Assembly (NCBI GenBank): GCA_947380605.1
Contig: CANCRO010000012.1
Location: 1-46,302 of the forward strand
Source of the DNA: Chitinophagaceae bacterium
GTDB taxonomy: Bacteria > Bacteroidota > Bacteroidia > Chitinophagales > Chitinophagaceae
Length of the DNA stretch: 46,302 bases
Direction of reading: 5' to 3'
The notes under the pieces are model-generated. The model was given only the letters and a program-made list of their open reading frames with translations. It was not told where the DNA came from and made no database searches. This document shows positions 13,517 to 42,929 of this stretch, piece after piece. A program made the position numbers and the translations under genes. Position 1 is the first letter of the stretch. Each line of letters opens with the position of its first letter.

Positions 13517-14857
13517 TTAGACCATTTTAAAAGATTCCAAAAACTTAGTAGTAAAATTTCCACTTCTGAAATCTTCATTCTTCATTAATTGTAAATGAAA
13601 AGGAATGGTAGTTTTAATTCCTTCAATAACGTACTCACTTAATGCACGATGCATGGTGTCAATTGCTTCCTCTCTTGTTTGCGCAACTGTGATTAGTTTA
13701 CCAATCATACTGTCATAATAAGGTGGAATAACATAACCTGCGTATACATGACTATCTACCCGAACTCCGTGACCTCCAGGGGTATGCAATACAGTGATTT
13801 TGCCTGGACTTGGTCTGAAGTCATTGTAAGGATCTTCTGCATTAATTCTACATTCAATCGCATGCATTTGAGGATAATAATTTTTACCACTCACTTTATG
13901 TCCTGCAGCAATTTTAATTTGTTCTTTTATCAAATCGTAACTCACTACCTCTTCAGTAACACAATGTTCTACTTGAATACGCGTATTCATTTCCATAAAG
14001 TAGAAGTTGCGGTTTTTATCTACTAAAAATTCAATGGTACCAACACTTTCATAATTAATAGCACTGGCCGCTTTGATAGCCGCTTGCCCCATTTTTTCTC
14101 TTAACTCTGGAGTCATAAATGGAGAAGGTGATTCTTCTACTAACTTTTGATGACGACGTTGAATAGAACAGTCTCTTTCACTCAAATGACAAACATTTCC
14201 AAATTGATCACCTGCGATTTGTATTTCGATATGTCGAGGCTCTTCTACAAATTTCTCCATGTAAATACCATCGTTTTTAAACGACGCGGCGGCTTCTGTT
14301 TTAGCATTTTCGTATGCCTTTTCAAGTTCACTTTCTTCCCATACCACCCGCATACCTTTACCACCTCCTCCTGCTGTTGCCTTTAATATAACTGGGTAAC
14401 CTACTACTTTTGCAGCAAGCTCTTTTGCCTGCTCCACACTTTCTAATAACCCTCCACTCCCGGGCACCACCGGTACCCCAGCCTTAATCATTGTTTCTTT
14501 CGCGGTAATTTTATCACCCATCGCATTAATCATATCAGGTGTAGGTCCAATAAACTTTACACCATGATCAGCACAAATCTGAGCAAACTTTGCATTTTCT
14601 GCAAGAAATCCATATCCAGGATGAATAGCATCTGCATTAGTAATCTCCGCAGCAGCCATAATGTGCAATATGTTAAGGTAAGAATCCACACTACTTGGTC
14701 TGCCAATACATACCGCCTCATCAGCAAACTTTACATGTAAACTATCTTTATCTGCAGTAGAATAAACAGCGACCGTTTTAATGCCCATCTCTTTACAAGT
14801 ACGAATAATACGTAGTGCAATTTCTCCTCGATTGGCAATCAATATTTTTTTGAACAT
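13517..14857 (-). CDS. accC: Biotin carboxylase subunit of acetyl-CoA carboxylase
   Basis: This is the ATP-grasp enzyme that carboxylates biotin on AccB, the first half-reaction of malonyl-CoA synthesis. Its 446 residues match the standalone subunit. The N-terminal domain begins [16 protein letters not shown]. The ATP-binding glycine-rich loop [13 protein letters not shown] lies near residues 157-169. The catalytic segment [11 protein letters not shown] lies near 288-298. Downstream it ends with the usual C-terminal lid and no carrier domain, so it is not a pyruvate carboxylase fusion. It follows accB by 160 nt on the same strand, which fits an efp-accB-accC block. A strong hairpin terminator lies just after it. 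Confidence 0.97.
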
Positions 14858-15017
14858 AATGACAAATTTGAAAATTTTAAAAAGGCTCCATCAATTAATA
14901 CAATCGTATTAAAAATTTAGCCAAATCAAAAAATAAGGAATCTGATAAAACTAATTGTTGATTTCAAATTTTAGAATCAATATTAGTTACCATTCAAGCC
15001 ATAGACTAAAAGTCAAA

Positions 15018-15497
15018 TTAGCTAGGATCTACCAAAAATAATGGTTGATCAAACTCAACTGGACTGGCATCTTCCACTAAAATCTTAACTATTTTACCTT
15101 TTACCTCACTTTCAATCTCATTAAAAAGCTTCATCGCCTCAATAATACAAACGATTGAACCAGGAGATACTTCATCACCTTCACTAGCAAATATGGGCTT
15201 TCCAGGACCAGACTGGCGATAGAATGTACCAATCATTGGACTTTTAATAGTAAGGTAGTTATCGGTTTTGGGGGCTGCAGCAACTGCAGGCGCAGGAGTA
15301 ACAGGAGCAGGAGCAGCTGGACTAGGTGCAGCTGGGGCCGAAAACATTGGAGCTTGCTGTCCACCTGCAATAATGTGCTGAACAGGATCTTTCTTTTGCT
15401 TTACGGTTATTTTAACCCCTTCTTCTTCAATGGTAATTTCTCCGATATTCGTCTTATTAATGAGCTTTACCAGCTCTTGAATTTGTTTGATATCCAT
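15018..15497 (-). CDS. accB: Biotin carboxyl carrier protein of acetyl-CoA carboxylase
   Basis: This is the 159-residue carrier protein that shuttles the carboxyl group between biotin carboxylase and carboxyltransferase. The C-terminal barrel contains the biotinylation motif EAMKL with Lys123. An Ala/Pro-rich flexible linker (about 49-77) separates it from an N-terminal helix-and-strand segment (MDIKQIQELVKLI). This is the standard AccB architecture. It is upstream of accC. Its own upstream region is unusual: a predicted promoter (15538-15569), a G-rich run in the leader and a phased A-tract array further out. Confidence 0.97.
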   Translation of the reverse strand: MDIKQIQELVKLINKTNIGEITIEEEGVKITVKQKKDPVQHIIAGGQQAPMFSAPAAPSPAAPAPVTPAPAVAAAPKTDNYLTIKSPMIGTFYRQSGPGKPIFASEGDEVSPGSIVCIIEAMKLFNEIESEVKGKIVKILVEDASPVEFDQPLFLVDPS

Positions 15498-15537
15498 AAT
15501 AATTCATTAAATGGTTTAGTTGATTACAAACGGGGGG

Positions 15538-15569
15538 CTAAGGTAGGTAATGATTTGTTAATAATGCAA
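15538..15569 (-). promoter_or_regulatory. Predicted accBC promoter
   Basis: On the minus strand a TTG (15569-15567) lies 21 nt before TACCTTAG (15545-15538), a near match to TAnnTTTG with one difference. The spacing fits the Bacteroidota -33/-7 layout. It predicts a leader of roughly 35 nt that contains a run of six C. The phased A-tracts begin 24 nt upstream of the -33 element. Confidence 0.5.
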
Positions 15570-15592
15570 GTTTTTAAAAAGAAAGAATTTAT

Positions 15593-15669
15593 AAAAATTG
15601 TCAAAAAAGCGCCAAAAATGGCTAAAAATCAGTAAAAAATGGCAATAATTGGCCAAAAAATAGCTAAAA
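15593..15669. promoter_or_regulatory. Array of eight helically phased A-tracts (predicted curved DNA)
   Basis: A-runs start at 15593, 15603, 15614, 15624, 15634, 15644 (split AATAA), 15655 and 15666. The spacings are 10, 11, 10, 10, 10, 11 and 11 bp, an average close to one helical turn. The units resemble a degenerate GGCYAAAAAT. Such phasing is known to bend DNA. It sits between the efp terminator and the predicted accB promoter. Together with the terminator and promoter it accounts for most of the 325-nt gene-free stretch 15498-15822. Confidence 0.7.
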
Positions 15670-15670
15670 T

Positions 15671-15706
15671 AAAAAAAGGGAAAAATTTAAATTTTTCCCT
15701 TTTTTT
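15671..15706 (-). terminator. Perfect 36-bp palindrome, probable efp terminator
   Basis: Two 18-nt arms meet with no spacer: A7-GGG-A5-TTT and its exact complement. On the minus strand it lies about 117 nt after the efp stop codon and ends in T7, so it can work as a terminator in either direction. The stem is held mainly by three G-C pairs plus A-T pairs. Confidence 0.7.
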
Positions 15707-15822
15707 GATATTTTTTGATGTTTTGGAGATATCATTAGCCATAAATTATCCGAAAAATAAGCCCTAAAAATTACTGGTAATAAATTGACTCTAAAGCGTC
15801 AACCCCTTCCTCCAGCTTACAC

Positions 15823-16389
15823 TTATTCTTTCACTCTTTCTACATACTCCCCTGTTTTAGCATTTACCCTTATCAATTCCCCTTCATTTACAAATAAAGG
15901 TACATTGACAGTAGCCCCAGTTTCAACGGTAGCAGGTTTCAAGGTTTTGGTAGCCGTATCGCCTTTCATCCCTGGTTCGCTATAAGTAACGAGTAAAACA
16001 ATTTTATCAGGCAATTCAACACCCATTGGCATATCGGTTTCTCCATTGATCAAGACTGATACTTCCTGACCATCCTTTAAAAATTTAGGCGCATCTACCA
16101 TCGCTTCAGGAACGGTGATTTGTTCAAAAGTTTCAATATCCATAAAACTATACCCCGTATCGTCTTTATATAAATATTGATAAGCCTTCTTCTCCACTCT
16201 AACTGGAAAGATAGTTTCCCCACTATTCCAAGTAAGTTCAATAGTACGGGTATTGTCTACCCCCTTTAATTTTGCCCATACTTTTGCAGCGGCACGAGCT
16301 GTCTTGTTTTGCCCAAATTCTATTACAGAGTATAAACTTCCATCTACTTTGATGATTAGTCCTGAACGCATGTCTGCTGTAGTTGCCAT
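15823..16389 (-). CDS. efp: Elongation factor P with Arg at the domain I tip
   Basis: This is a 188-residue factor that enters the ribosomal E site and rescues stalls at polyproline. The C-terminal OB domain shows the family signature: EPGMKGDTAT, KPATVETGATVNVPLFV and the ending TGEYVERVKE. Domain I is atypical. Counting from Met1, the tip residue that is Lys34 in E. coli falls on Arg32, inside NKTARAAAK, where a PGKG-type loop is usual. This resembles the Pseudomonas-type NKSGRNAA loop, whose Arg32 is rhamnosylated. Whether a modification occurs here is unknown, and no modifying enzyme gene is seen in the window. It is upstream of accB-accC with its own terminator between. Confidence 0.96.
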   Translation of the reverse strand: MATTADMRSGLIIKVDGSLYSVIEFGQNKTARAAAKVWAKLKGVDNTRTIELTWNSGETIFPVRVEKKAYQYLYKDDTGYSFMDIETFEQITVPEAMVDAPKFLKDGQEVSVLINGETDMPMGVELPDKIVLLVTYSEPGMKGDTATKTLKPATVETGATVNVPLFVNEGELIRVNAKTGEYVERVKE

Positions 16390-16489
16390 GTTTATTTTAT
16401 TATTTAGTGATAACTATTGGTTATTCGTTTTTTAGAAAAATCTTTTCCTAATCCATACCGACCCTGCTGAGTCTATATTTACTGTGCTG

Positions 16490-16497
16490 CAAAAGTA
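16490..16497 (-). promoter_or_regulatory. Candidate -7 box (TACTTTTG) of efp
   Basis: This is an exact TAnnTTTG match on the minus strand about 100 nt upstream of the efp ATG. It predicts a long leader of about 95 nt. No TTG is seen at the -33 spacing. Confidence 0.45.
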
Positions 16498-16614
16498 GGC
16501 ATACTAATGCTAAATAGGAAATTTGGCTTCTAAAATATAGTTTTTCAATGATATAAGTAAAAGGTTACTGTTCACAATAGTCCAACTTCACCTGTCAACT
16601 TTTGAGTATAACTA

Positions 16615-42647: not shown

Positions 42648-42929
42648 AGTGGATTAATTTAATTATTAATAAAAAAATCAGCTATTTACTGATTGGACCC
42701 AGTTTTTAGGCACAAAATGCTATATTTTAAGTGAAAACTAACTCAATTTGCCCCAATTTTTGACAAATTACTACTTGAGAATACCCGAAAAACAGGTTAG
42801 CGCATCAAAAAAAGGGTTTACATCACCTGCTCAATACTGTTAATTTATAAAAAAATCTTGCTAAACCCGATCGATCAATGTTCTACTTTACCATAAATAT
42901 TTAAATTTCTTACTAAAACTTACTAATTT
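42648..42929. other. Gene-free stretch left of the unknown gene at 42930
   Basis: This is about 280 nt of AT-rich sequence with no open frame, no strong hairpin and no repeat that I can support. It ends with the stop of the 42930 gene. It may hold the -33 region of infA and the 3' end of the 42930 transcript. Confidence 0.5.

Follow-up and report, generated by a model that had tools for sequence, protein, structure and literature searches.

Does the shape of the DNA upstream of accB help to control this gene? In the window, that is, the whole stretch of 46,302 nucleotides analysed here, accB (15018–15497, minus strand) encodes the biotin carboxyl carrier protein of acetyl-CoA carboxylase, with a 39% match to E. 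coli K-12 AccB, and is followed downstream by accC, the biotin carboxylase gene (13517–14857, minus strand; named by eye from sequence). The upstream neighbour is efp, for elongation factor P (15823–16389, minus strand; named by eye), and efp was found upstream of accB in 28/30 same-genus loci (tblastn). Between the efp terminator and the predicted accB promoter lies an array of phased A/T-tracts (15593–15669, minus strand), composed of seven runs of 4–6 nt and one interrupted repeat. As set out below, a strong predicted bend of about 85 bp has been kept in related bacteria, together with its rotation, though most of its letters have changed, which suggests that shape itself helps to control the gene.

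On the plus strand, A-runs of at least four nucleotides fall at 15593–15597, 15603–15608, 15614–15618, 15624–15628, 15634–15639, 15655–15660 and 15666–15669; read on the accB coding strand, these are T-tracts. The sequence-only reading of this DNA had counted eight A-tracts at 15593–15669. Re-listing the A-runs upheld the coordinates and seven real runs at helical spacing, but the repeat at 15644 reads AATAATT and is interrupted. Tandem Repeats Finder returned the same block, with a period of 10 and 66% matches. An extra A/T-tract (15576–15580, minus strand) lies between the array and the −33 element, and one more A-tract (15671–15677) falls within an arm of the terminator. This intrinsic-terminator-like palindrome (15670–15707), between efp and the array, is unusually long and A/T-rich, near-perfect over 17 pairs of which three are G-C, and it scores as a terminator on both strands though both neighbouring genes lie on the minus strand. 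No known RNA family reached its gathering score within 15000–16500.

The array begins 24 nt upstream of a candidate −33 element, TTG (15567–15569, minus strand), itself placed 21 nt upstream of a predicted −7 box, TACCTTAG (15538–15545, minus strand); both distances agree with those in the sequence-only reading. By the spacing rule given in passages of PMC6847099, transcription would start near 15533. A TTG near the −33 position recurs in many relatives, not all. The box is mostly TAYCTTAG in relatives; nearly every aligned locus has this form, with L015 and L023 as variants, and so do other Chitinophagaceae. It is conserved, yet it departs from the consensus TAHHTTTG by an A in place of T−6, which passages of PMC6847099 list among the nearly invariant positions of the −7 box, so the accB promoter, too, counts as a prediction. 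Some Pedobacter and Mucilaginibacter accB loci have TAACTTAG at about the same place. A wider regulon with the same box was rejected, as CCTAYCTTAGC was no commoner in the genome than its backward control (two v three occurrences).

Predicted curvature of the array and its rank

Curvature was computed with two models, a wedge table and an AA-wedge-only model. The predicted bend of the array over 84 bp was 208 degrees with the wedge table and 202 degrees with the AA-wedge only. Dinucleotide shuffles of 15561–15680 averaged about 70 degrees, and 0/2000 matched the array in either model. The strong curvature that had been predicted from the letters is borne out by both models, at about 205 degrees. 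Counting chains of tracts gave much weaker evidence (at least five tracts of 4+ nt in 42/5000 shuffles); the longest-chain statistic is a blunt measure of phasing.

Within the window, the array had the highest 63-bp and 84-bp curvature in both models. At the 105-bp scale, the infA promoter region reached 204 degrees v 192 for the array in the first model, and the two tied in the second. The array was also the top 84-bp value in 446,302 bases of its own genome, the window included, where the runner-up, at 179 degrees, lay upstream of infA in the same window. This second most curved 84 bp (42685–42769) stands upstream of a predicted infA promoter, TATCTTTGC; infA is followed in the window by rpsM and rpsK (named by eye). 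Sampling 361,501 bases of another genus member, G018, gave a maximum of 131 degrees, and the accB upstream region of that genome gave 204 degrees.

Four phased T-tracts occurred at five distinct places in the whole own genome (2.88 Mb), two of them being the array and its terminator flank. The pattern is identical when reversed, which makes a backward control uninformative, so this count comes without a chance control. The other three places were the gap between rplU and rpmA (genes named by eye; 127 degrees) and two of no notable curvature.

Conservation of the bend and its phase within the genus

The accB gene was found in 33/36 genomes of the genus, the window's own included. Upstream DNA was readable in 32 genus genomes and bent in 31 of them (122–210 degrees). 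The median for the accB upstream region was 180 degrees (30/30 loci measured), and this region held the top 84-bp curvature of its locus in 29/30 same-genus loci. The one readable genome without a bend was G001 (locus L028), where the gap between efp and accB is 65 bp and lacks terminator, array and usual promoter; in L028, efp and accB may share a transcript.

Alignment on the −7 box comprised 33 regions, from 29 same-genus loci and from L031, L032, L035 and L036, which were chosen as near relatives from accB identity and layout. Left out were L028, the incomplete L033, and L034 and L037 (apparent duplicates of L015 and L010); L290 and L291 served for curvature measurement only. Phasing in related genomes, whose absence would have told against the sequence-only reading, was found in the aligned regions: each of the 33 exceeded its own dinucleotide shuffles (31 with 0/500 as high, L023 with 1/500 and L027 with 2/500), and the AA-wedge-only model concurred (33/33 regions, at most 3/300 shuffles as high). 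Identity among the arrays was 40% ungapped and 49% gapped, with 34% for shuffled arrays; for the promoter stretch it was 57% v 28% shuffled.

With the first base of the −7 box as zero point, the A4/T4 tracts line up as a comb whose pooled spectrum peaks at 10.3 bp. Between 75% and 87% of sequences have a tract at each of the eight peaks of the comb, which run from about −111 to −40; its valleys are occupied in 0–3%, except the last one (18%). With the −7 box as anchor, the phase resultant was 0.77–0.79 (33 loci); anchoring on the ATG gave 0.38 (33 loci), on the efp stop 0.41 (31 loci) and on the terminator 0.41 (30 loci). For the 30 loci that have every one of these anchors, the values were 0.77, 0.36, 0.41 and 0.41, respectively. 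The weaker anchors were nominally significant too (P about 0.005–0.009, with related sequences counted as independent, as in all phase P values given here), which is expected where all distances are roughly kept. After pruning, the resultant was 0.81 for 22 sequences below 60% identity and 0.86 for 15 below 55%. A-only and T-only tracts differed in phase by 1.1–1.4 bp. The array stands upstream of a promoter-like site of the Bacteroidota −33/−7 type, as the sequence-only reading had placed it, and its link to that site is borne out by a phase fixed to the −7 box.

An eight-place grid, drawn after the comb was known and so descriptive rather than a test, was filled at 6.7 of eight places per sequence on average, and at 2.2 after a 5-bp shift. 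Grid centres run from −39 to −110 relative to the −7 box, or about −51 to −122 from the predicted start. The majority base accounts for 72% in tract columns and 38% in spacer columns. G+C drops to 3–12% at the centres of the eight grid places and rises to as much as 75% half a turn away, between them. The phase kept on the −7 box, taken together with the low identity of the arrays, points to selection on shape and rotation, not letters; on our reading of the aligned sequences, selection probably keeps the shape of the bend and its rotation rather than its letters.

The arrays also have a strand bias. On the accB coding strand, the 33 arrays hold TTTT 223 times v 52 times for AAAA, an excess that pure bending does not explain; A-tracts are commonest at grid places −110, −59 and −39.

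Curvature at other promoters and in other lineages

A general feature of acc genes was rejected, since upstream medians in the genus were 84 degrees for accA (measured in 16 of the 20 same-genus loci tried; one gave 162 and the runner-up 122) and 68 degrees for accD (17 measured of 19 same-genus loci; maximum 130), compared with 180 degrees for accB. A feature of all growth genes was likewise rejected on the ranges upstream of infA (80–179 degrees, 20 same-genus loci) and recA (86–131 degrees, 19 same-genus loci). Two of ten infA loci from other families reached 188 and 150 degrees; the 188-degree region, L173 (G040, another family of the order), is as strong as the accB bends. For 16S rRNA, matches were found in 3/35 genomes, giving two loci only and a maximum of 94 degrees, a result of little weight.

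Ordinary predicted promoters were sampled from genes of at least 90 codons with consensus −7 boxes, which excludes shorter genes such as infA. Their maximum was 115 degrees in G000 (83 promoters) and 78 degrees in G018 (44 promoters). Phase at these promoters gave resultants of 0.12 (P about 0.33) in G000 and 0.13 (P about 0.53) in G018; pooled tract occupancy peaked at 10.6 and 11.5 bp, respectively, so a faint average signal at promoters is possible. Across accA, accD, infA, recA and ordinary promoters, these values make accB a consistent extreme in the genus, not its sole curved promoter.

A wider sample consisted of the best 80 of 544 accB relatives found, and 30 of these 80 loci had at least 120 degrees. 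The genus-titled loci at or above this threshold among the best 80 of 544 were from Ferruginibacter, Hydrotalea, Terrimonas, Sediminibacterium and a MAG called Chitinophaga pinensis (all Chitinophagaceae); titles from outside Chitinophagaceae were Algoriella (122 degrees) and a MAG titled Comamonas. Many titles of bent loci give only Chitinophagaceae, Bacteroidetes or similar. Loci below 120 degrees in the same best 80 of 544 were from Niastella, Paraflavitalea, Pinibacter, Segetibacter, four Chitinophaga isolates and one Terrimonas, and from Pedobacter, Mucilaginibacter, Flavobacterium and Aquimarina. In 22 genomes drawn from the order's other families, no accB upstream region was above about 100 degrees.

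Outside the genus, 6/20 loci with a CTTAG-type box were bent, and the other 14 had at most 67 degrees. The six bent loci (Terrimonas twice, three Chitinophagaceae and one MAG titled Sphingobacteriales) had phase offsets of 2.1–5.1 bp, with a mean of 3.2 bp and a resultant of 0.81 (P about 0.02); they thus share the phase of the genus, whose offset is 2.9 bp.

A second accB upstream design was seen in 13 Hydrotalea- or Sediminibacterium-like loci (L044, L060, L061, L063, L068–L072, L077–L079 and L090; last 110 bp before accB), with an equally strong bend that reaches the ATG. All 13 beat their own shuffles (0/300 each). Several have a TAnnTTGY-like box near −60, and in many a conserved stretch like TTTACCCAAAATTGCCAAA precedes the ATG. 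In F. psychrophilum, a TAnnTTGY-like motif is assigned to a probable alternative sigma factor in passages of PMC9723704.

Proposed role and comparison with known systems

The tracts, their predicted bend, its conservation, its phase-lock to a promoter-like box and its rarity in the sampled DNA are computed results. We lean towards a reading in which the array acts in cis on the accBC promoter, as an upstream element whose intrinsic curvature probably wraps DNA on RNA polymerase. About eight A/T-tracts, one per helical turn and with G+C opposite, would curve the DNA from about −51 to −122, and the rotation of the bend relative to the −7 box would be fixed. Once RNA polymerase is bound, this curvature would return the upstream DNA onto the enzyme (its alpha subunits); HU or a similar architectural protein may assist, or may be the main partner. 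Wrapped upstream DNA would in turn raise accBC promoter activity. Promoter activation, direct contact with RNA polymerase and sensitivity, if any, to temperature or supercoiling are inferences.

In F. johnsoniae promoters, passages of PMC6847099 describe AT-rich motifs at −18 and −28 that are stronger than the −33 motif and lie on consecutive turns from the −7 box. The accB comb, extrapolated, falls at about −19.5 and −30, on the same face as these motifs within about 2 bp, and this shared face leads us to propose that the array is an upstream continuation of the face that Bacteroidota polymerase contacts. An effect of upstream phasing on promoters is reported in works cited in passages of PMC9825172. 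Binding of phased A-tracts by polymerase alpha at the plc promoter of C. perfringens is stated in the title of Katayama 2013, cited in PMC4132750.

The bend could instead serve to recruit an HU-like protein, gyrase or a dedicated regulator that modulates or represses accB, with RNA polymerase bypassing the bend; this is possible, if doubtful. Phased A-tracts with G+C half a turn off are the pattern of protein-wrapping DNA, and the alternation of tracts and G+C in the array fits it. About eight turns, moreover, exceed the length that alpha subunits need, and the T-over-A strand bias could signal a directional protein. Gyrase and plectoneme pinning are named as candidates in passages of PMC9825172. 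However, apart from the composition of tracts and spacers, no motif conserved across the aligned columns could be seen by eye, A- and T-tracts interchange between sequences, and a phase fixed to the −7 box is needless for a polymerase-independent protein unless it touches the polymerase.

A stronger proposal, which we regard as unlikely, is that in the genus and its relatives the accBC promoter is run by DNA shape without a dedicated regulator protein: selection would preserve an eight-turn bend through turnover of its sequence, the bend angle falling with temperature or shifting with supercoiling. If it is true, the DNA itself would sense these conditions and so decide how far the cell commits to making fatty acids (membrane).

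It is very unlikely that the array is a chromosome-packaging or supercoil-pinning site that adjoins accB by accident. A-tract clusters have been proposed as a packaging aid, in work cited in passages of PMC9825172, but the phase here is fixed to the accB −7 box, and the bend is the strongest in the sampled DNA of two genomes, not one among many.

More improbable still is termination or insulation of efp, in which curved T-rich DNA after a terminator blocks read-through and the periodicity is incidental. A terminator-like stem does lie upstream of the array in 30/31 aligned loci with an efp stop, and L028 lacks terminator, array and usual promoter together (by eye); bent DNA is also enriched in segments with putative promoters and terminators, according to work cited in passages of PMC4060949. 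Nevertheless, a terminator or insulator role was rejected because the position of the array is not fixed to the terminator (resultant 0.41 v 0.77 for the −7 box, across the 30 loci that have every anchor). A 10.3-bp period, moreover, has no use in termination that we know of.

That a T-rich intergenic stretch of an AT-rich genome came by phased runs through chance and descent is the least credible explanation, for although the aligned regions are 64–82% A+T and the related loci share ancestry, chance is excluded by dinucleotide shuffles, which 33/33 regions beat in both models, spacer columns have turned over (38% majority) whereas tract columns have not (72%), and ordinary predicted promoters stay at or below 115 and 78 degrees.

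How, then, does a curved accBC promoter element compare with what has been described? Muramatsu and Mizuno reportedly described, in 1989, bent DNA near E. coli fabE (= accB). In E. coli K-12, the accB upstream region gave 58 degrees within 350 bp, and the maximum of a 4-kb stretch, 102 degrees, lay in accC or just after it; with predicted K-12 curvature this low, a feature common with E. coli accB is unsupported. A UP element is an A/T-rich block at about −40 to −60 bound by alpha-CTD. Like it, the accB array is A/T-rich and just upstream of the promoter; unlike it, the array is much longer and strictly periodic. An element confined to about −40 to −60 was rejected on grid centres at about −51 to −122, and the UP-type A-tract DNA of the sequence-only reading does not hold in its classical form, since the array in relatives exceeds it at about eight turns.

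The −18 and −28 motifs of F. johnsoniae, as described in passages of PMC6847099, belong to the same phylum and share with accB the type of −7 box and AT elements on successive turns; they are two short motifs inside the core promoter, whereas the accB array covers some eight further turns upstream. In Synechocystis, passages of PMC9825172 describe helically phased A-tracts in phase with the −10 element and start site as a genome-wide average. The accB A-tracts are similarly fixed in phase to the core promoter, but in place of an average signal there is one extreme array at accB and little at ordinary promoters; a signal of the Synechocystis type, common to most promoters, was rejected on the 83 and 44 predicted promoters.

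Curved upstream DNA at single promoters is also close in kind. For a phage promoter in B. subtilis, rotation matters (McAllister and Achberger 1989, via passages of PMC9825172 or PMC4132750), and curved upstream DNA is also attributed to cyanobacterial psbA (Asayama 2002, cited in passages of the same two papers). With these and plc, as far as those passages describe them, the accB array has in common phased A-tracts upstream of a promoter, and it displays the tracts at 10–11 bp, predicted curvature above composition controls and fixed rotation of such DNA, the rotation being comparative and the promoter predicted. Unlike in those three cases, the evidence at accB is comparative, from 33 diverged regions in which shape and rotation are kept, and the array covers about eight turns on a Bacteroidota −33/−7 type promoter of a housekeeping gene.

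The locus seems to be a clear natural example of a single housekeeping promoter at which selection acts on the shape and rotation of DNA rather than on its sequence. Dozens of diverged arrays offer material for learning what upstream curvature does to the RNA polymerase of Bacteroidota, itself unusual, and the array is a possible control point for acetyl-CoA carboxylase. The open-licence literature searched, including passages of PMC3940949 and PMC4060949, holds no description of a shape-conserved accB array. Curvature upstream of promoters and A-tracts phased with the core promoter both belong to known kinds. As far as the open literature was searched, the novelty lies in an eight-turn array, conserved in shape and fixed to a promoter of Bacteroidota, and in its connection with acetyl-CoA carboxylase.
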